Assembly (NCBI RefSeq): GCF_018598585.1
Contig: NZ_JAHESD010000059.1
Location: 1 to 35,233 of the forward strand
Reading direction: 5' to 3'
Length of the DNA stretch: 35,233 nt
Origin: Chryseosolibacter indicum
Lineage (GTDB): Bacteria; Bacteroidota; Bacteroidia; Cytophagales; Cyclobacteriaceae
Below are positions 3,431 to 18,110 of this stretch, one piece after another; the stretch's first letter is position 1; each line of letters begins with the position of its first letter. A model generated the notes under the pieces. The model was not told the origin of the DNA and ran no database searches. It saw only the letters and a list, made by a program, of their open reading frames with translations. A program made the position numbers and the translations under genes.

Positions 3431-3641
3431 ATATGCCCAAAGTTCGGGCTTTTTCCCGACTTGATGCCAAAAGACTACCGCATTTGAACGGCTTTCTCCC
3501 TTCCATTCCTGTCGTCATTGCAGGCCCTCCATTAAAATTCAGTTTCCTTTTGGCGCAAGCTTGTGTCCGCGGAGTTTCTTTTGTTTTCCGGCAAAAGCCC
3601 GGAGACATGGCCATCTAAAATCAAAGTTTCACTTAAACAAT
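3431..3641. promoter_or_regulatory. Long, structured leader upstream of the ArdC-like gene
   Basis: About 210 bases without a convincing gene. It has richer GC and C/T-rich stretches than its neighbours and holds a hairpin (TCGGG at about 3443-3447 with CCCGA, loop CTTTTT, extended by AAG/CTT around a bulge) and a CCGG-caaaagc-CCGG hairpin near 3591-3605. Open frames on both strands look like non-coding artefacts. A comparable leader stands before the RadC gene at 11148-11356. A role in expression is inference. Confidence 0.3.
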
Positions 3642-7677: not shown

Positions 7678-7956
7678 TCATCTAAAGCGTCTTCGCGTTC
7701 GCCCTTTTCCTGGTGGTTTGTTCCATTCCCTTCTCCAAGCCTCCGTGTCTGCTTTGGCTAGTGGCCGACAAAGTTCAATGTATTGATTGTAGTCAACCGC
7801 TTTTTCGCAACACTCCCAAATGTGCTGCTCTGTTATGTGCATGTCTTCTTTTAACACAGTCCTTGTATGGTACGAAACGGTAAAATCATCACCGTAGTGA
7901 TAGGGTACCTTGCCGAAGTGTTTTACGATATGGTCTGCCAAATCCTTGATCGTCAT
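7678..7956 (-). CDS. Small hypothetical protein with basic tail
   Basis: A 92-residue protein that I do not recognise. It is soluble, rich in His, Trp and Cys (HIWECCEKAVDYNQY, a Trp pair near residues 74-78) and ends in a very basic tail (GKGRTRRRFR), compatible with nucleic acid binding. Its ATG lies 3 bases after the stop of the 122-residue gene, so the two are almost certainly cotranscribed and probably translationally coupled. It belongs to the minus-strand set that ends in the DUF4365 gene. Confidence 0.6.
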   Translation of the reverse strand: MTIKDLADHIVKHFGKVPYHYGDDFTVSYHTRTVLKEDMHITEQHIWECCEKAVDYNQYIELCRPLAKADTEAWRREWNKPPGKGRTRRRFR

Positions 7957-7959
7957 GCA

Positions 7960-8328
7960 TCACCTCACCAGCTTTAGTTGTGTAGGATTGAGAACCGAGT
8001 CAAGAAGCAAGTCGATTTCTTTGAAAAACTCTTGCGAAGGAACGCGGTAGTTAATATTCTTTTCAATCTCGTGGACGATTTCCAAATACCGGTCGAGGTT
8101 GACTTTTGAATTTGATAGGTCCATTAACTTGTCGCGCAAAAGGTCCTGCATCGCTTTGTCAACCTTCGTATAAAACTTAAATTGGAGGTAAGTTGGCAGA
8201 TCTGTTAATATGCCGGTGATCAACATAGTCCGGTGCTCAGACAAGATTTCCTGAATCCTGAAAAGGGTAACACGCTCATCACCCTCTTCAATATGCTTTA
8301 CGGTGCTTGCTATTCTGACTGACTTCAT
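7960..8328 (-). CDS. Small hypothetical protein, first gene of the DUF4365 set
   Basis: A 122-residue, largely helical protein that I do not recognise. No clear helix-turn-helix can be read, though the segment about residues 20-60 is helical and basic-acidic mixed. It is the first gene after a promoter flanked by two identical palindromes, the position often held by an autorepressor, so a regulator role is possible but unproven. Downstream, the 92-residue gene follows after 3 bases. The start is the ATG at 8326-8328, two bases from the nearer palindrome. Confidence 0.6.
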   Translation of the reverse strand: MKSVRIASTVKHIEEGDERVTLFRIQEILSEHRTMLITGILTDLPTYLQFKFYTKVDKAMQDLLRDKLMDLSNSKVNLDRYLEIVHEIEKNINYRVPSQEFFKEIDLLLDSVLNPTQLKLVR

Positions 8329-8427: not shown

Positions 8428-9351
8428 ATGAAATTTGTCAAAATAGAGGGTGGAGTAAAACTGTCGCAGTGTATCGCGCCAATGAGCGCAACGTTAAGCG
8501 ATGAACCGGCATTCGATGATCCTAAATGGCTCTTCGAAATCAAGTGGGATGGATACCGGGCGGTTGCTGAATTGAACGGAAAAGACACGCGGCTTTATTC
8601 ACGCAATGGACTTTCTTACAACAAAGCCTATCCGAAAATTTACAATGAACTCGTTAAGATGAAAGTTGATGCTGTCTTGGATGGTGAGGTTGTAGTTTTT
8701 CGGGATGGCATGCCATCGTTCCAGGCAATTCAAAACTATAAGAGCACGCAAAACCTGCCTATTCAATTTATTGTATTCGATTGCCTTCAACACAATGGCA
8801 AGGACTTGACTAAGTTCAAACTGATAGAGCGAAAGGAGATTCTGAAATCTATTCTTCAGCAAAGCGATGTCATTAAATACTGCGACCATGTCGAAGAAGA
8901 TGGAGTAGCACTGTTTGAACAAGCTACCAAGATGAACCTCGAAGGCATCATTGCCAAAAGAATGGATAGCAAGTACTATCCCGACAAGCGATCAAAAGAA
9001 TGGTTAAAAATCAAGAACGTCAAGGTTGATGATTTCAAAATAATTGGCTGGACAGATTCAAAAGCAAGTCGTCAATATTTTGGTGCGTTACTCCTTGCGC
9101 GTGAAGTTGATGGTCAGCTCGTTTATTCAGGTGAAGTTGGAACAGGGTTCACGAATGATTTATTGAAGAGTTTGTACGCAAAGATTCAACCGCTTGAAGT
9201 GAATGAATGTCCATTGGATACTCCGGTGAAAAAGGAGAAGGGATTTCATTGGGCAAAGCCGAAGTATTCATGCCAGGTGCAGTATGTTGAGATGACGGAT
9301 GACGGGCATGTGCGGCATCCTGCGTTTTTGGGATTGAGAAAGGACAAATAG
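8428..9351 (+). CDS. ATP-dependent DNA ligase (LigD-type ligase domain, stand-alone)
   Basis: A 307-residue ligase that seals nicks through an enzyme-AMP intermediate. Motif I is EIKWDGYR with nucleophile Lys39; also present are LYSRNG (about 56-61), LDGEVVV (Glu87), EGIIAKR (172-178) and WLKIKN (192-197), followed by the OB-fold with the RHPAFLGLR ending typical of LigD ligase domains. It lacks the polymerase and phosphoesterase domains of full LigD, and no Ku gene is in the window. It leads a plus-strand operon with the M41-like peptidase 18 bp on and the HNH gene after that. The ligase call is secure; a role in defence or in ICE DNA repair is inference. Confidence 0.9.
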   Translation: MKFVKIEGGVKLSQCIAPMSATLSDEPAFDDPKWLFEIKWDGYRAVAELNGKDTRLYSRNGLSYNKAYPKIYNELVKMKVDAVLDGEVVVFRDGMPSFQAIQNYKSTQNLPIQFIVFDCLQHNGKDLTKFKLIERKEILKSILQQSDVIKYCDHVEEDGVALFEQATKMNLEGIIAKRMDSKYYPDKRSKEWLKIKNVKVDDFKIIGWTDSKASRQYFGALLLAREVDGQLVYSGEVGTGFTNDLLKSLYAKIQPLEVNECPLDTPVKKEKGFHWAKPKYSCQVQYVEMTDDGHVRHPAFLGLRKDK

Positions 9352-9369
9352 GGATTTTTAACGAACGTC

Positions 9370-9972
9370 ATGGACATGATAAAGATGTTTGACCAACAAA
9401 GGATTAAAAGTGTCTGCAAGCATGAGGCTGGACATTATCTAGTTGCAAAACTGCTAGGCTTTAAAACACACGGTATTTCGATTAAAGTCCATTTTCCGAT
9501 TGGACACGAAGGTGGTTCAACCATTGAGCCGAGTCTCCCCGGGATTACTAATATCGACTTGTTGAAAAGTCATTTAAGAAAGCGCATCCAGATATTGTAT
9601 GCCGGAGTTATTTCAGAGGCCTTTCACAACGAAAATACTTACGATTCCGATTATGCCTTAAAAGAATGGCGAACTGGCGGAGGTCGAGATGACTACTCGA
9701 AGATTAGAGAATTGACCCATATATTACGGAACATCTCGTTTCCATCTTCGAGCAACACTGACGAAATGCAAAGCCAGCTTACCAAAATAGATGATGAACT
9801 TATAAACCTCACTGGAGAAACAGTTTCAACAAACCTGCGTCTCATTTCATCGATTTGTGATTTATTGCTGAAAAAAGTGGCCCACTATGATGAGCACTTT
9901 GAGTTAAGTGAGGGTGAAATTTTGGAATTGCCGTCCATGCGTAATCTATTTCCAAAAGAAACAACATCGTAG
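9370..9972 (+). CDS. Stand-alone M41 (FtsH)-like zinc metallopeptidase
   Basis: A 200-residue soluble protein. HEAGH at residues 18-22 gives the zinc-binding helix, YAGVISEAF at about 77-85 matches the FtsH LAGRxAEE helix, and GGGRDDYSKI at 103-112 matches the FtsH segment that supplies the third ligand Asp. FtsH's membrane and AAA+ domains are absent, so this is only the peptidase module. It is followed after 2 bases by the HNH nuclease gene and preceded 18 bases earlier by the ligase, pointing to a joint function. A processing role on a partner protein is a reasonable guess; the target is unknown. Confidence 0.75.
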   Translation: MDMIKMFDQQRIKSVCKHEAGHYLVAKLLGFKTHGISIKVHFPIGHEGGSTIEPSLPGITNIDLLKSHLRKRIQILYAGVISEAFHNENTYDSDYALKEWRTGGGRDDYSKIRELTHILRNISFPSSSNTDEMQSQLTKIDDELINLTGETVSTNLRLISSICDLLLKKVAHYDEHFELSEGEILELPSMRNLFPKETTS

Positions 9973-9974
9973 TA

Positions 9975-11147
9975 ATGAATCCTGAAAGCTCCTGTGTTTA
10001 TTGTAAAACAAATTCACCTAACCGATCCGAACACGTCTTCCCCTTTGGGTTAGGAGGGGAAAATATATTTCTTGATTGTGTTTGCGCAGATTGCAATAAC
10101 AAATTCTCAAGATTGGAAATGGAGCTGATCCAAAAATCAATTATAGGCTTAATGCGATCCGAAGTCGGCATCGAGGGCTATTCAAAAAACAAAAACCATC
10201 CATCACCTTTTAAAAAGTCCACCATTCTTTTTCATGATGAGAGTAGTAATATTGTTTATGAAGTCGGCCAAAGCAAAGGCTTCGAGGTATATCTAAGGCC
10301 GCAGATCGTATATTTCAACGGGGATTTTTTCATAGAAGGAGCAAGTGACAACGACCTTGTATTGCTCAGTAAGGTTTTTATCAAATGGATACGAACTAGC
10401 TTGCTAGTTGTAGAGCTCCCTTCTGTCAACTCGCCAGGTACCAGTGTCCAATTTCAGAAGATCGGAGCTGAATATTCATGGGAAAGTTATACTGGTCCAA
10501 GAAAACGCAATAAGATTATTTTCAAGAGGATGAATAAAGACGACAAGTTTTACAAGCTGTTAACGACTCGACTGTTTCTTGATGACGAGGATAATCTTTA
10601 TATCCGTGCGAAATCAATTGAAGATGTAACTGCTTTCATACCCGAACTATTAAAGATAGTAGATATTAAAAAGCCTCTTAACAGCTTTTCAAAAAACTTC
10701 TCTTCATCACCAGTCATTAACGTTGCATTTGATTTTGATCCACTAATGTGCGAAAGAGCGATTGTTAAAATTGGGCTGAATGCATTCTTTCATTGTTATC
10801 CAAGAGAACGATATAATTTATTTTTGAAGCCAGCGATTGAGTTTGTTTTAGAGGGGAAAAGTCATTTCAATAGATTTTTTGATAGAGGAATGAAGCGTAT
10901 TGACGGGATTGAGGATGCTCATTCAATCTCCTTTTTTCAACATGACGACAATCTTCTTCTGAGGGTCAATCTTTTCAGTGGTCAGTTCATTTTAGCCTTT
11001 TGGTTAAATGGAATTTCTGTTATGCAACCATCTGAGCACTCTGCGGTTGACATCAATTATCGGAAACGTCACCTTCGCTTTTTAACTATGAATGACCTTT
11101 TGTATGATCGGGCGCAACGGGAAATCAAAAGAAATCCTAATGCTTAG
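9975..11147 (+). CDS. HNH endonuclease (HNH_5-like) with long C-terminal domain
   Basis: A 390-residue protein. Residues 7-45 form an HNH/treble-clef unit: Cys7-x2-Cys10, then SEHVFPFGLGG with His20, Asn30, and Cys37-x2-Cys40 followed by Asn41 (CADCNNKF). This fits HNH_5-type nucleases. Residues about 60-390 have no assignable domain; they are mixed alpha/beta and could be target recognition or regulation. The ATG lies 2 bases after the peptidase stop, so translation is likely coupled. Nuclease, peptidase and ligase in one operon form an unusual set for ICE cargo. A homing-type role is less likely because the operon sits among intact ICE genes. Confidence 0.75.
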   Translation: MNPESSCVYCKTNSPNRSEHVFPFGLGGENIFLDCVCADCNNKFSRLEMELIQKSIIGLMRSEVGIEGYSKNKNHPSPFKKSTILFHDESSNIVYEVGQSKGFEVYLRPQIVYFNGDFFIEGASDNDLVLLSKVFIKWIRTSLLVVELPSVNSPGTSVQFQKIGAEYSWESYTGPRKRNKIIFKRMNKDDKFYKLLTTRLFLDDEDNLYIRAKSIEDVTAFIPELLKIVDIKKPLNSFSKNFSSSPVINVAFDFDPLMCERAIVKIGLNAFFHCYPRERYNLFLKPAIEFVLEGKSHFNRFFDRGMKRIDGIEDAHSISFFQHDDNLLLRVNLFSGQFILAFWLNGISVMQPSEHSAVDINYRKRHLRFLTMNDLLYDRAQREIKRNPNA

Positions 11148-11356
11148 CTGTTCTCAATTACTTCGCTCTTCATTCATTTGCTTTCCAATATCAGATTTAG
11201 ATTCTGGCGCTAACCTACTTCCGGGTGGCAACAGCCTAGCTTGTCAAGAGAAATCCGGCATAAACGGCTCCTGCCTACGGCCTGCCTTCCAATTATTCCG
11301 TTTTCATCTTGACAATCCGCCACCCTCCATTTGAGGCGCACCATAATTTAAATCTT
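11148..11356. promoter_or_regulatory. Long leader upstream of the RadC-like gene
   Basis: About 210 bases without a convincing gene between the HNH stop and the RadC ATG. It is more GC- and C/T-rich than nearby coding DNA and shares short words with the leader before the ArdC gene (ACGGCT, CTTCCA, CCCTCCATT, GGCGC in the same order). Small frames across it look spurious. A shared leader element for the antirestriction genes is a weak inference. Confidence 0.3.
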
Positions 11357-11830
11357 ATGATTATGGAAAGCACAAATGAAAAAACACTGTTCGAAGTTGC
11401 AGAGATTCAGCTCACCTACAAGTCAAAAGTAAGTCCTTCACTACGTCCAAAGATCACCTCATCAAGAGACGCTTATCAAGTTCTCAACAAATATTGGGAT
11501 GAAGGTAAAATGGATTTCGTTGAACAGTTCAAAGTTCTCCTTCTTAATAGAGCCAACAAAGTTATCGGCATCTATGAAGTGTCATCAGGCACAACGGTTA
11601 ACACTGTAGCTGACCCTAAGTCAGTGTTTGTTGCAGCGCTTAAGGCTAATGCTTGTGGAGTTATCATAGCTCACAATCATCCATCTGGCAACCTTACAGC
11701 AAGTCAGGCAGATATTAAGCTGACAAAGGACTTGAAAGATGCTGGTAAGTTCCTTCACATTCCAGTTCTTGACCACATCATCATAACCAGCGAATCATAC
11801 TATTCATTCGCTGACGAAGGGCTCTTGTAG
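11357..11830 (+). CDS. RadC-family JAB/MPN domain protein of the ICE
   Basis: A 157-residue protein made of one JAB/MPN (JAMM) domain. The metal site is visible as Glu56 (FVEQFKVLLLN), His106-Asn-His108-Pro-Ser110 (AHNHPSGN) and Asp119. The N-terminal HhH part of chromosomal RadC is missing, as is usual for mobile-element RadC proteins, often placed beside antirestriction genes. The biochemical role of RadC is unsettled. I chose the ATG at 11357 because the in-frame extension upstream lies in the leader. The gene stands between the two cargo blocks and is followed by a short hairpin. Confidence 0.8.
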   Translation: MIMESTNEKTLFEVAEIQLTYKSKVSPSLRPKITSSRDAYQVLNKYWDEGKMDFVEQFKVLLLNRANKVIGIYEVSSGTTVNTVADPKSVFVAALKANACGVIIAHNHPSGNLTASQADIKLTKDLKDAGKFLHIPVLDHIIITSESYYSFADEGLL

Positions 11831-14486: not shown

Positions 14487-14511
14487 AAGACAGGGATCAA
14501 GTCCCTGTCTT
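14487..14511. terminator. Hairpin around the integrase stop codon
   Basis: AAGACAGGGA (14487-14496) and TCCCTGTCTT (14502-14511) form a perfect 10-bp stem with a 5-base loop holding the integrase stop codon. The T-rich tail (TCTTCTTTTG) is on the plus strand; on the minus strand the tail is poor. It could end integrase transcription or protect against read-through either way. Confidence 0.5.
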
Positions 14512-15753
14512 CTTTTGTTGCTTGCTCTTCGTTACTTTCATCGTCAACTTTTTCTTCAACGCCTTCATATCATCACTCACTTTTCGATCAATGATTTTGG
14601 CATAATGTTGAGTCGTCTTTAAATTTTTGTGACCCAGCATTTTTGAGACGCTTTCAATAGGGACGCCATTGGTCAGCGTGACCGTCGTGGCAAATGTATG
14701 ACGCGCACAGTGAAACGTGAATTTCTTTTCAATGCCTACTATAGCAGCGATCTCTTTCAGATACCCATTCATGTTTTGATTGCTGAAGATAGGAAGCAAC
14801 AAATCTTCATTGACACACTTCGGATGATTCTTGTATTTTTCAAGTATTTGCAACGCGATAGGTAGCAATGGAATTCGAGAGGCCGAATCTGTTTTTTGGC
14901 GAGTGGTGGAAATCCACTTATCACCATCGATGCCTATGATGATCTCTGAACGTTTTAGTTTTTCAATATCCGCATAAGCAAGGCCAGTGTAACAACTGAA
15001 AATGAAAATGTCTCGGACAATGTTGAGTCTTTCAGCAGGAAAATTTTTCGCAAGGACAGCGGAAATTTCTTCTTCCGACAAATACTCGCGGATCACTTCC
15101 TTTTTACACATCTTGTAGCCGAAAAATGGATCACGGTCAAGCCATCCGTTTTTTACGCAGATGTTCACGATCTTTTTGACATTCGAAATGTATTTGATTG
15201 AAGTATTGTGGCAGCACTTGCGAACAGTTTTAAAATAGAATTCCATATCAGCGACAAACTCATAGTTGAGTTTATTCACATCGATATCCTCATATCCGAA
15301 CTTCCACTTGATAAAATCTTTGGTGTGTGATCGAGCGGTTTCGTACCGCTCCATTGTCCCTGGCGCAAAGTCAATGTTGACCAGCTCACGCATCTGCTTG
15401 TTGTGATAATCAAACACCTCGAGTAGCTTTTTGGAATTTCGATTTTTTCCGGTGACAATTTCACGAATTGTATCAGTTGAGATCACTTCACCATCATCCA
15501 AAATTTGACGCTGAGCTTCATAAACTTTTGTCTTAAGTGTGTCAAGATATGCGTTGAGTTCTCTGGCTGCTTCTTTTGTCCCACTTGCTCTGCCTGCATC
15601 AGCATTCCACTTTGTTGGCTCCCACTCTCGCTGGGTTGAGAACTCAGTCCTTTTCCCAGCAACACTAACGCGCATGTACACGTCCATCAAACCACCTTCT
15701 TCGTACTTCTTCGGCTTCTTCAGATAGAAGAGCAAATTGAATCTTCGGCTCAT
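14497..15753 (-). CDS. int: Tyrosine recombinase/integrase of the ICE
   Basis: A 418-residue Bacteroidetes-type integrase that joins and excises the element. Residues about 1-100 are the arm-binding region, about 105-205 the SAM-like core-binding domain and about 215-395 the catalytic domain. Visible catalytic residues are Lys287, His348-x2-Arg351, His375 and nucleophile Tyr384. The first Arg is missing: the TGLR position reads TGLA with Ala259. CTnDOT IntDOT also lacks this Arg, so the enzyme can still be active; Arg247 is nearby. The gene ends the element, 253 bp from the tRNA-Ser 3' end, which is the classic arrangement of an ICE at its attachment site. Confidence 0.92.
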   Translation of the reverse strand: MSRRFNLLFYLKKPKKYEEGGLMDVYMRVSVAGKRTEFSTQREWEPTKWNADAGRASGTKEAARELNAYLDTLKTKVYEAQRQILDDGEVISTDTIREIVTGKNRNSKKLLEVFDYHNKQMRELVNIDFAPGTMERYETARSHTKDFIKWKFGYEDIDVNKLNYEFVADMEFYFKTVRKCCHNTSIKYISNVKKIVNICVKNGWLDRDPFFGYKMCKKEVIREYLSEEEISAVLAKNFPAERLNIVRDIFIFSCYTGLAYADIEKLKRSEIIIGIDGDKWISTTRQKTDSASRIPLLPIALQILEKYKNHPKCVNEDLLLPIFSNQNMNGYLKEIAAIVGIEKKFTFHCARHTFATTVTLTNGVPIESVSKMLGHKNLKTTQHYAKIIDRKVSDDMKALKKKLTMKVTKSKQQKKTGT

Positions 15754-15853
15754 AACACTCTTTGTTTTGGTTGATAATTAAAACTAGAAGTGCAGCCATC
15801 GAAGATCAAGATGTCCATCATTTGGACAGGTTGATCTTCAGTTAGTTATAGCA

Positions 15854-15902
15854 AAACTGGTGAGTAAATTTTTCGGTTTTTTTGACTCACCAGTTTACTC
15901 AC
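15854..15902. repeat. Inverted repeat near the att end
   Basis: AAACTGGTGAGT (15854-15865) is matched exactly by ACTCACCAGTTT (15885-15896), a 12-bp inverted repeat with a 19-base spacer. The word GTGAGTAAA at 15860-15868 recurs inverted at 15894-15902. Such repeats beside an integrase gene are typical of arm-type binding sites, but this is inference. Confidence 0.65.
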
Positions 15903-15946
15903 TGCTTTTTTGAGAATCGGTGAATAATTTGATGTTGTCACTAAAC

Positions 15947-15982
15947 GAAAAAAGCCTGCAATCTTATGATTTGCAGGCTTTT
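15947..15982 (-). terminator. Terminator downstream of tRNA-Ser
   Basis: AAAAGCCTGCAA (15950-15961) and TTGCAGGCTTTT (15971-15982) form a perfect 12-bp stem with a 9-base loop; on the minus strand a T run follows. It stands about 25 bases past the tRNA 3' end and would end the tRNA transcript. It can also work on the plus strand. Confidence 0.75.
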
Positions 15983-16006
15983 AACTTGTTTTGATACTGT
16001 TATCAG

Positions 16007-16091
16007 CAGAGGAGGAGGGATTCGAACCCCCGGATCCTTGCGGATCTCCGGTTTTCAAGACCGGTGCAATAAACCGCTCTACCACTCCTCT
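16007..16091 (-). tRNA. tRNA-Ser(TGA), probable ICE insertion target
   Basis: Reading the minus strand, the acceptor AGAGGAG pairs with CTCCTCT followed by discriminator G. The anticodon arm is CCGGT-CTTGAAA-ACCGG, giving anticodon TGA. The long variable arm GATCC-gcaa-GGATC marks a class II tRNA, and the T arm is GGGGG-TTCGAAT-CCCTC with one wobble pair. CCA is not encoded. The 3' end faces the integrase, as in tRNA-borne attachment sites. A consensus promoter lies upstream. Confidence 0.95.
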
Positions 16092-16121
16092 GTATTTCGG
16101 CTTAATTCACAAATTAGGCTG

Positions 16122-16152
16122 CAAAACTATTAATTTCTCGCGTTCCTCCAAA
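16122..16152 (-). promoter_or_regulatory. Consensus promoter of tRNA-Ser
   Basis: On the minus strand TTTG (16152-16149), a 19-base spacer and TAGTTTTG (16129-16122) match the Bacteroidetes sigma-A consensus in every fixed position. Transcription would start about 25 bases before the mature tRNA 5' end. Confidence 0.8.
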
Positions 16153-16170
16153 CAAACACATTAAACTTTC

Positions 16171-17715
16171 TTAACGTGTGTCTTCACCATAATCTACAAA
16201 GTGCCTTTTTATCTCTTTATCATCTATTTTGCTTGGGTTTCTCGCAAAGCTGTCTAATTCCAGCAATACAATGCGCTGGTCGTTTAAAACAGCTCTTAGT
16301 TTTTCAATGTCTTTATCGAACTCGGCATTACGGCGGGCTGACTTCAATACATATTTTCTTGCAAACTCATCTCCGGATGCCTGTACTCTATTTCGTATTT
16401 CTATGCCATTCTTTATACGTTCCATAATGCTTTCTTTCGAGCGGCCTATCACTTCAGTTGCTTCCAATGTACCAAGCGTTAAAACTGTTGTTCCACCAAC
16501 ACCTGATACAATTTTAGACTGATCAGGAGTTTCAATAACTACAGGAGATAAACCTGTTACAGCACCCAGTGATGCATTAAGAATAGAGCGGTGCTTTTTG
16601 CCTTTTCTTGCTTTTTTATATTCCTGATTAAGCTTCTTCTGGTTGGCATCTAGCTGTTGTATCAACATAGCAGCATCGACAAGGTTGCTTCTGTACTTTT
16701 GAAAAAGATGCGCATCCTTTTTAAGCATGTTTTCCGCATCGTTTACTCTAACCTTAATTTTCTTTTGCGACCTGTTGTTTGACTTATCAACGGCATAGAA
16801 CGTAAGGTTTACATCAACTACCTTTTTTATATCGTCAGCAAACTCATAACCAGGCAGCCAGATAAACTCGTATTGGAGTTGTGTGTTTTCTTTTAAAGCT
16901 CCTGACGGTATACGAGTATCTGAACCAATAAAGCCAGCACTGCGTATATTATCGTCTCCGTTTGGGTCCGAAATATATAGTTTTAGGTTTAGTGGCTCAT
17001 CTTCTTTTATACTAAACAAGGAATCGGCGGGTAAGATGAGAATTTCGGGGGGCAAATCTAACTGCGTTGGTGCAACTCTGATTCTGCCTTTTGTCTCAGC
17101 CTTGTCAGGCTGATCCTGAACAATAAAATCAATGTAAATGGCGTCTTTCTTTAAAGAAGAAAACTGGCTTCTTGAAGGAGACCACGTTAATAAGCCCTGT
17201 GAATTCAAATTAGCACCTTCGGGTAATTGAGATTGAACCGATTTAATAATGATAGGATCTCCGTCTGGGTCAAAAACGAAATCACCAGGAATTTGATAGC
17301 TATTTAAGCTCGATTGCTTAACATAGAATGCAGGGATTTCTTCTACCACCGGAGGTCGGTTTACGTGGTTAACTGTAAATGTAACGGTTTTACTGGCCCG
17401 TTTCCCATTGCGCCAGGTAGCCCTGAAAACAAAACTAAAATCTTTTGATCTTTGTACACGGTCTACAAGATCGTAAGATGGCTTCCAGGAAAAGTTGCCA
17501 AGCGAATCAAAATGAATATTAAGGTTTTCGATCCCTTCAATAGAAAAAACAGGGATTCTATCTTCTGTCGTCTTTACCCAGAATGAAATGTTCTGATTTT
17601 CATTCAACACGTTCCACCCGATCGAATCAGGGAAAATTAATTGAGGTTCCGACTGACTAAATGACTTACTCCAGATTATGCAAACTACTACAACTGAACA
17701 GAAAAAGTATCTCAC
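16171..17715 (-). CDS. Secreted Ig/cadherin-like repeat protein
   Basis: A 514-residue exported protein with a GTG start (17713-17715). Residues 1-21 are a signal peptide ending in SFSQS. Residues about 22-325 contain three beta-sandwich units of the cadherin/Ig-like kind: NRPPVVEEIPAF with DPDGDPI, then PPEILILP with DPNGDDN, typical linker and calcium-loop words. Residues about 335-380 and 425-514 look like coiled-coil or helical stretches, with a Gly-rich, weakly hydrophobic segment at about 380-420. It probably acts at the cell surface or in the periplasm; the ligand is unknown. It is the first chromosomal gene after tRNA-Ser and diverges from the alkyltransferase-like gene. Confidence 0.7.
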   Translation of the reverse strand: MRYFFCSVVVVCIIWSKSFSQSEPQLIFPDSIGWNVLNENQNISFWVKTTEDRIPVFSIEGIENLNIHFDSLGNFSWKPSYDLVDRVQRSKDFSFVFRATWRNGKRASKTVTFTVNHVNRPPVVEEIPAFYVKQSSLNSYQIPGDFVFDPDGDPIIIKSVQSQLPEGANLNSQGLLTWSPSRSQFSSLKKDAIYIDFIVQDQPDKAETKGRIRVAPTQLDLPPEILILPADSLFSIKEDEPLNLKLYISDPNGDDNIRSAGFIGSDTRIPSGALKENTQLQYEFIWLPGYEFADDIKKVVDVNLTFYAVDKSNNRSQKKIKVRVNDAENMLKKDAHLFQKYRSNLVDAAMLIQQLDANQKKLNQEYKKARKGKKHRSILNASLGAVTGLSPVVIETPDQSKIVSGVGGTTVLTLGTLEATEVIGRSKESIMERIKNGIEIRNRVQASGDEFARKYVLKSARRNAEFDKDIEKLRAVLNDQRIVLLELDSFARNPSKIDDKEIKRHFVDYGEDTR

Positions 17716-17765
17716 GTTTCTTTAGGTAAATGGCTGTAAATTTAACAACAACGAACGAACTGAAA

Positions 17766-18110
17766 ATGTCCATGTATAAAAAGAGCAGTAATAGACAAAA
17801 TTTCTTTCTTGATGTATATGAGGTGGTTAGGTTGATACCAAAAGGAAAAGTGACGAGCTACGGCGCAATAGCTCATTACCTGGGAGTAAAATCGGGAGCA
17901 CGTATGGTTGGATGGGCAATGCATGGTTGCCCTAAAGGGGTTCCTGCACATCGCGTTGTAAACCATGCTGGGCTGCTCACCGGTAAACGCCATTTCAAAA
18001 GTCCGCAAACGATGGAGAATCGCTTGAGACGCGAAGGAGTTAAAGTAATAAAAGATAAAGTTGTGGATTTTAAAACATTATTTTGGGATCCTTCAACCGA
18101 ATTGGCTTAA
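17766..18110 (+). CDS. Alkyltransferase-like protein (ATL), MGMT family
   Basis: A protein of about 114 residues with the DNA-binding fold of O6-alkylguanine-DNA alkyltransferase: IPKGKVTSYGAIAHYLG (helix-turn-helix start), SGARMVGWAMHGCP with the Arg finger, and PAHRVVN. The catalytic Cys of MGMT (PCHR) is Ala here, so it cannot accept alkyl groups. ATL proteins bind O6-alkylguanine and hand the lesion to nucleotide excision repair. The start is uncertain: ATGs at 17766 and 17772 both give normal ATL length, and a start at 17730 adds 12 residues but leaves only 14 bases to the divergent gene. Confidence 0.85.
   Translation: MSMYKKSSNRQNFFLDVYEVVRLIPKGKVTSYGAIAHYLGVKSGARMVGWAMHGCPKGVPAHRVVNHAGLLTGKRHFKSPQTMENRLRREGVKVIKDKVVDFKTLFWDPSTELA

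Follow-up and report, generated by a model that had tools for sequence, protein, structure and literature searches.

A stand-alone M41-like peptidase gene and an HNH nuclease gene of Chryseosolibacter indicum form, as sequence comparison shows, a two-gene cargo cassette occupying an exchangeable slot in a conjugative element, between a backbone DNA ligase gene and a conserved hairpin ahead of radC. The stretch of DNA analysed, hereafter the window, comprises the 35,233 nt of contig NZ_JAHESD010000059.1 (assembly GCF_018598585.1). The ligase, the peptidase, and the HNH protein are encoded in one direction on the + strand, with 18 bases between the ligase and peptidase genes and 2 bases between the peptidase and HNH genes. 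The first-pass annotation had read this arrangement as a three-gene system carried as ICE cargo. Its coordinates, strand, and gaps, as well as the motifs it named (Lys39 in EIKWDGYR, HEAGH, and GGGRDDY), were all confirmed by the sequence. The placement as ICE cargo is supported by conjugation genes and an integrase nearby, and the domain assignments by Pfam, NCBIfam, and a fold match. The features of the region are given below; L052 and L053 (both in a same-genus genome, G672) and L093 (in a same-family genome, G783) are related elements.

7678-8328, - strand: two small backbone genes (92 and 122 aa) that diverge from the ligase gene and are found beside it in L052, L053, and L093 (protein identity 48-96%).
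8428-9351, + strand: LigD-type ATP-dependent DNA ligase consisting of the ligase domain alone, backbone; protein identity 84-90% in L052, L053, and L093, with the slot next each time.
9352-11168, + strand: exchangeable cargo slot, from the ligase to the radC hairpin.
9370-9972, + strand: stand-alone M41-like zinc peptidase, 200 aa.
9975-11147, + strand: HNH_5 endonuclease with a long C-terminal region, 390 aa.
11231-11326, + strand: conserved hairpin that precedes radC and bounds the slot region on the right, recognized by conservation in the related elements, covariation, and folding.
11309-11830, + strand: RadC-like JAB-domain gene (PF04002), backbone; protein identity 68-94% in the three related elements.

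The conjugation genes of the window point to an element of the Bacteroidota type. At the left end of the window, Pfam models identified TraM and a DUF4138 gene, the latter presumably TraN-type, and ArdC is also encoded left of the ligase. After the RadC-like gene, to the right of the ligase-HNH run, come two genes without matches (553 and 206 aa) and then a gene for a tyrosine integrase (14497-15753). Beyond these lie a tRNA-Ser gene (16006-16091, ARAGORN) and housekeeping-type genes such as RecR. The tRNA-Ser gene was considered as an attachment site and rejected because the assembly contains its 20-base end a single time, so that no duplicated end was found. A 915-aa gene at 4720-7467 matches DUF4365 at its N-terminus and nothing in PADLOC, and it lies in a region not shared with the three related elements.

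The ligase is of the LigD type. It matched PF01068 and PF04679 above the Pfam cut-offs and TIGR02779 of NCBIfam with 292 bits versus a cut-off of 228, and it carries the lysine motif KWDGYR (Lys39). The ligase domain makes up the whole window protein, which scores over the curated cut-off, but unlike LigD it has no polymerase or nuclease domain and is carried as element backbone. A search of three genomes of the genus and a DNA search of 245 genomes of the family, 15 of which gave any match, found the ligase at full length and at least 70% identity in four places other than the window; G672 has two of them, and G783 and G891 have one each. The 19.9-kb stretches around these four places were compared with the window. 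The order of small divergent genes, ligase, slot, hairpin, and radC is common to the window, L052, L053, and L093. The fifth close ligase (L094, in G891) has no other window gene in its stretch. Next to it come a helix-turn-helix gene and a gene whose 1346-aa product shows a weak match of the STAND type. Relatives of TraM and DUF4138 are present in L053 and L093 and were not found in the stretches covering L052 (L052 and L090), and the window integrase was found in none of the compared related-element stretches. It is because of this patchiness and the absence of the integrase that L052, L053, and L093 are termed related elements.

All three related elements retain the ligase, the pair of small genes upstream of it, and radC, while the genes next to the ligase differ and once lie on the opposite strand. 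The earlier claim that the ligase is part of the system does not hold up against this comparison. Since the ligase stays while the next genes change, it is part of the backbone shared by a family of conjugative elements of the Bacteroidota type and not a member of a trio.

DNA similarity to the related elements ends at window position 9350, in the ligase stop codon. It returns at 11169, 11180, or 11181, which is 22-34 bases 3' of the HNH gene. The intervening slot measures 1.8 kb in both the window and L053, 1.7 kb in L052, and 1.2 kb in L093, and its contents differ in all four elements: the peptidase and the HNH protein; a 307-aa unknown protein together with a DUF5677 protein; a DUF4209 protein; and a 356-aa protein without a Pfam or PADLOC match. 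The DUF4209 protein, encoded on the opposite strand in L053 (10877-12616), matches the phage-defence candidate PDC-S39 of PADLOC (E=3.6e-18); the slot contents of the other two related elements matched no PADLOC model. Furthermore, L052 encodes a class II Argonaute (15722-18022; PADLOC pAgo_II, E=2e-251) 2.5 kb after radC; cargo of the defence type is therefore present in this region of the element. We treat the peptidase and HNH genes as one cargo cassette because the gap between them is tight and they were replaced as a single block.

Defence hot spots in mobile elements are described for P2/P4 (PMC9122126). They share with the slot its fixed flanks and an exchangeable content that is partly defence-type, but the slot belongs to another element family, is known from four occupants only, and has a putative defence function. 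Two side observations concern genes near radC: a CoiA-like nuclease gene adjoins the class II Argonaute gene (L052 14004-15560), and an intact-looking APH(6)-type kinase gene (PF04655) directly follows radC in L053 (13358-14257).

The hairpin upstream of radC is kept in all four elements, and a relative of it occurs upstream of ardC in the window and in two of the related elements. Beside the radC-side hairpin of the window, the sequences are:

Window 3439-3576: ardC-side hairpin.
L052 12657-12753, L053 12733-12827, and L093 7977-8079: radC-side hairpins.
L052 2797-2938 and L053 6866-6983: ardC-side hairpins.

In an alignment of these seven sequences, every cell of the basal helix is paired, and 3 of the 8 pairs changed on both sides. 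The covariation score was reached by none of 500 shuffles and the number of pairs changed on both sides by 25 of 500, while the number of pair types was under that of every shuffle; the structure behind these values was drawn from folds of the same seven sequences that were used for covariation. Folded as single-stranded DNA, the hairpin gave z=-3.4 for the - strand and z=-2.6 for the + strand. A model of the hairpin run on 16 stretches found only these elements at E<=1e-3, and three of the ten rows up to E=1 were the reverse strand of the same places. In its own genome the model found two places, both in the window, and a comparison with Rfam gave no match at gathering scores. The F plasmid has single-strand promoters called Frpo (PMC9849209), which the hairpin recalls in its position ahead of anti-restriction-type genes. 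One possibility, based on this analogy, is that the hairpin acts as a single-strand promoter or another leading-region signal. The ardC relative of L052 (3005-3883) is seemingly interrupted by an in-frame stop, with two frames in register against one window gene.

The match of the peptidase to the M41 model of Pfam (E=2.4e-4, 21.5 bits) is under the gathering score of 29.9. An AlphaFold model based on 15 sequences (the window protein and 14 viral relatives) reached a mean pLDDT of 83.6 and a pTM of 0.84. When this model was searched with Foldseek, its best solved matches were FtsH-type protease domains, and ranks 1-27 of the 50 matches shown were FtsH-type proteases or FtsHi; among the matches listed, 6 had E<=0.001, the best being 1.8e-4, with TM of about 0.5-0.6. 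The predicted fold is that of the FtsH protease domain (M41). H18, E19, H22, and D108 are invariant in alignments of 4, 15, and 11 sequences, and the plasmid copies vary at the third and fourth letters of HEAGH. We take D108 to be, by analogy, the position of FtsH's third zinc ligand. The window peptidase thus shares with FtsH the model fold, HExxH, and a conserved downstream Asp. It differs from FtsH in that its 200 aa gave no Pfam match to an AAA+ ATPase module or a membrane anchor, so that it does not qualify as a whole FtsH enzyme, and in that it is a small mobile-element gene product whose M41 score lies below the cut-off.

Relatives of the peptidase are scarce among cellular genomes. Within 291 genomes of the order and 395 of the phylum, it was found only in the window's own genome. 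A peptidase profile matched 3 of 267 genomes, and the two beside its own were marginal (E=4.6e-4 and 9.5e-4), one of them being a 162-aa HEAGH protein (L129). Of 72,556 plasmid records, 3 carried relatives, as did 23 viral contigs; the 50,697 phage records had none. At the viral loci whose neighbours were listed, the peptidase gene mostly stands alone among structural or tail-type genes, as judged by eye from size and sequence.

The HNH protein matched HNH_5 (PF14279) with 28.8 bits, just above the cut-off of 27.5, and PHROG 35254 matches its residues 6-106. In an alignment of six rows, from which three of the eight relatives (L008, L009, and L010) were left out, the motif C7, C10, E19-H20, C37, and C40 is invariant in 6/6 rows, and an Asn follows the last Cys in 5/6. 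By its score and its zinc and HNH residues, the protein is an HNH_5 endonuclease. It shares the CxxC...EH...CxxC motif with HNH_5 endonucleases and PHROG 35254 but differs in its long C-terminal region, into which a single one of the relatives found aligns far. This relative, an HNH-methyltransferase fusion on a Methylocystis plasmid, aligns to residues 7-278 with 25.9% identity. The seven further relatives, found in 6 of the other 394 genomes of the phylum and once in genome contigs, match around the HNH motif. The first-pass annotation had assigned the C-terminal region to no known family. This stands insofar as no Pfam model covers the region, but the alignment of the Methylocystis protein qualifies it. 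Solved-structure matches to the region (E 0.13-0.43) were weak and taken as chance, and a single-sequence structure model of the protein had a pLDDT of 34.4. At the Methylocystis locus (L013 5974-11937), the fusion gene has as neighbours an annotated SIR2 gene and genes for a calcineurin-type phosphoesterase and for an SbcC-like ATPase that partially matches defence ATPases. It is possible that this is a defence locus.

Do the peptidase and HNH genes occur together elsewhere? The pair was sought in viral contigs, plasmid records, phage records, genome contigs, and genomes of the order and phylum. An HNH protein of the window type was encoded near none of the peptidase relatives at 26 phage and plasmid loci (19 distinct sequences; up to 8 kb per side, shorter at contig ends). 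Likewise, none of eight HNH loci had a peptidase or ligase gene nearby (two stretches reach just 1.7 and 3 kb on one side). The first-pass annotation had named rare adjacency elsewhere as a finding that would refute its own proposal, and this is what the limited search found. Elsewhere, each protein appears to work without the other. Two of the 26 loci (L119 and L120, with the same peptidase sequence) have an HNH gene about 0.6 kb away, which was not counted because it is phage-type and has no HNH_5 profile match. A HEAAH motif in a 390-aa frame at an HNH locus (L126) had no peptidase profile match and was regarded as chance. At one of the 26 loci, a viral contig (L014/L100), a gene for a LigD-type ligase domain lies about 1.1 kb away from that of the peptidase:

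L014 1-663 and 1754-2392, opposite strands: M41-like peptidase and LigD-type ligase domain gene.

The earlier statement that no known system contains the trio is borne out by PADLOC-DB 2.0.0, in which the three proteins matched no family at E up to 1. Among the titles and abstracts listed, the literature yielded no peptidase-HNH system or stand-alone M41 phage gene, which is not proof of absence; passages of PMC8541194 and PMC7159879 contain nothing on either.

The original proposal of a three-gene system, with the nuclease as effector, the protease as activator, and the ligase repairing self-damage, has in its favour the common direction of the genes and the 18-base gap between ligase and peptidase, to which the single viral ligase neighbour at L014/L100 may be added. 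However, the ligase is kept without the other two genes in three related elements, with other genes next to it and once in opposite orientation, and at L094 it precedes the helix-turn-helix gene and the gene with the weak STAND-type match. The three-gene system is largely refuted by a ligase that stays while its neighbours change, and we consider it very improbable; the ligase as a self-repair partner is disfavoured. A narrower version involves two genes only: on infection, the peptidase would cleave the C-terminal region of the HNH protein or an inhibitor, releasing or removing the nuclease. This agrees with the adjacency and 2-base gap, with active sites that both look intact in sequence, and with the joint presence of the two proteins in one slot, but the complete lack of pairing at the 26 and 8 loci makes it unlikely. 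Its most specific form, in which the stand-alone FtsH-type domain would hold or release the HNH effector by cutting its C-terminal sensor during phage infection, in a cassette of a conjugative-element defence slot, is quite doubtful. A more serious rival, because each gene is found without the other elsewhere, is that a solitary mobile-element peptidase and a solitary HNH nuclease share the slot as independent orphan cargo with no joint function. GC3 values of 0.41 for the peptidase, 0.37 for the HNH gene, and 0.46 for the ligase fit this view, in a weak comparison as other window genes span 0.32-0.54. The tight spacing, the same direction, and the one uninterrupted replaced block speak against it, and independent orphans are a tentative possibility that deserves to be kept in mind.

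The explanation judged best joins a backbone ligase to a two-gene cargo cassette in an exchangeable slot, with the cassette providing accessory immunity against other mobile DNA; this joint reading has, in our estimation, an even chance of being right. Accessory immunity with an HNH effector was judged most likely because the slot has a defence-candidate occupant and L052 carries a class II Argonaute. Further points in its favour are the different slot contents in 4/4 elements, DUF5677 in another occupant, the conserved metal-ligand and HNH residues, the Methylocystis relative beside SbcC-like ATPase and SIR2 genes, and the 2-base gap. However, neither the peptidase and HNH protein nor two of the three other occupants matched PADLOC, the pair recurs nowhere searched, and most phage peptidase relatives stand alone in structural-gene regions, unlike the pattern of defence islands. 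Slot exchange by itself is compatible with any cargo. On balance, an accessory-immunity role of the cassette is plausible. The HNH protein would be the effector, cutting incoming or replicating DNA, and its long C-terminal region could serve for sensing or for recognition of the target. The peptidase is an FtsH-type domain that lacks an ATPase and a membrane anchor, and its substrate would be a protein that is folded or has been unfolded beforehand; this may be the HNH protein or a protein of the phage or host. The ligase would take no part.

Gene spacing alone, here in the form of an apparent three-gene operon, can mislead where backbone and cargo abut. The real unit is the exchangeable slot between the backbone ligase and radC, and defence genes that have escaped recognition in this element family may be sought there. 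Should the cassette prove active, bacterial immunity would gain an FtsH-type protease domain that stands alone as one of its components.
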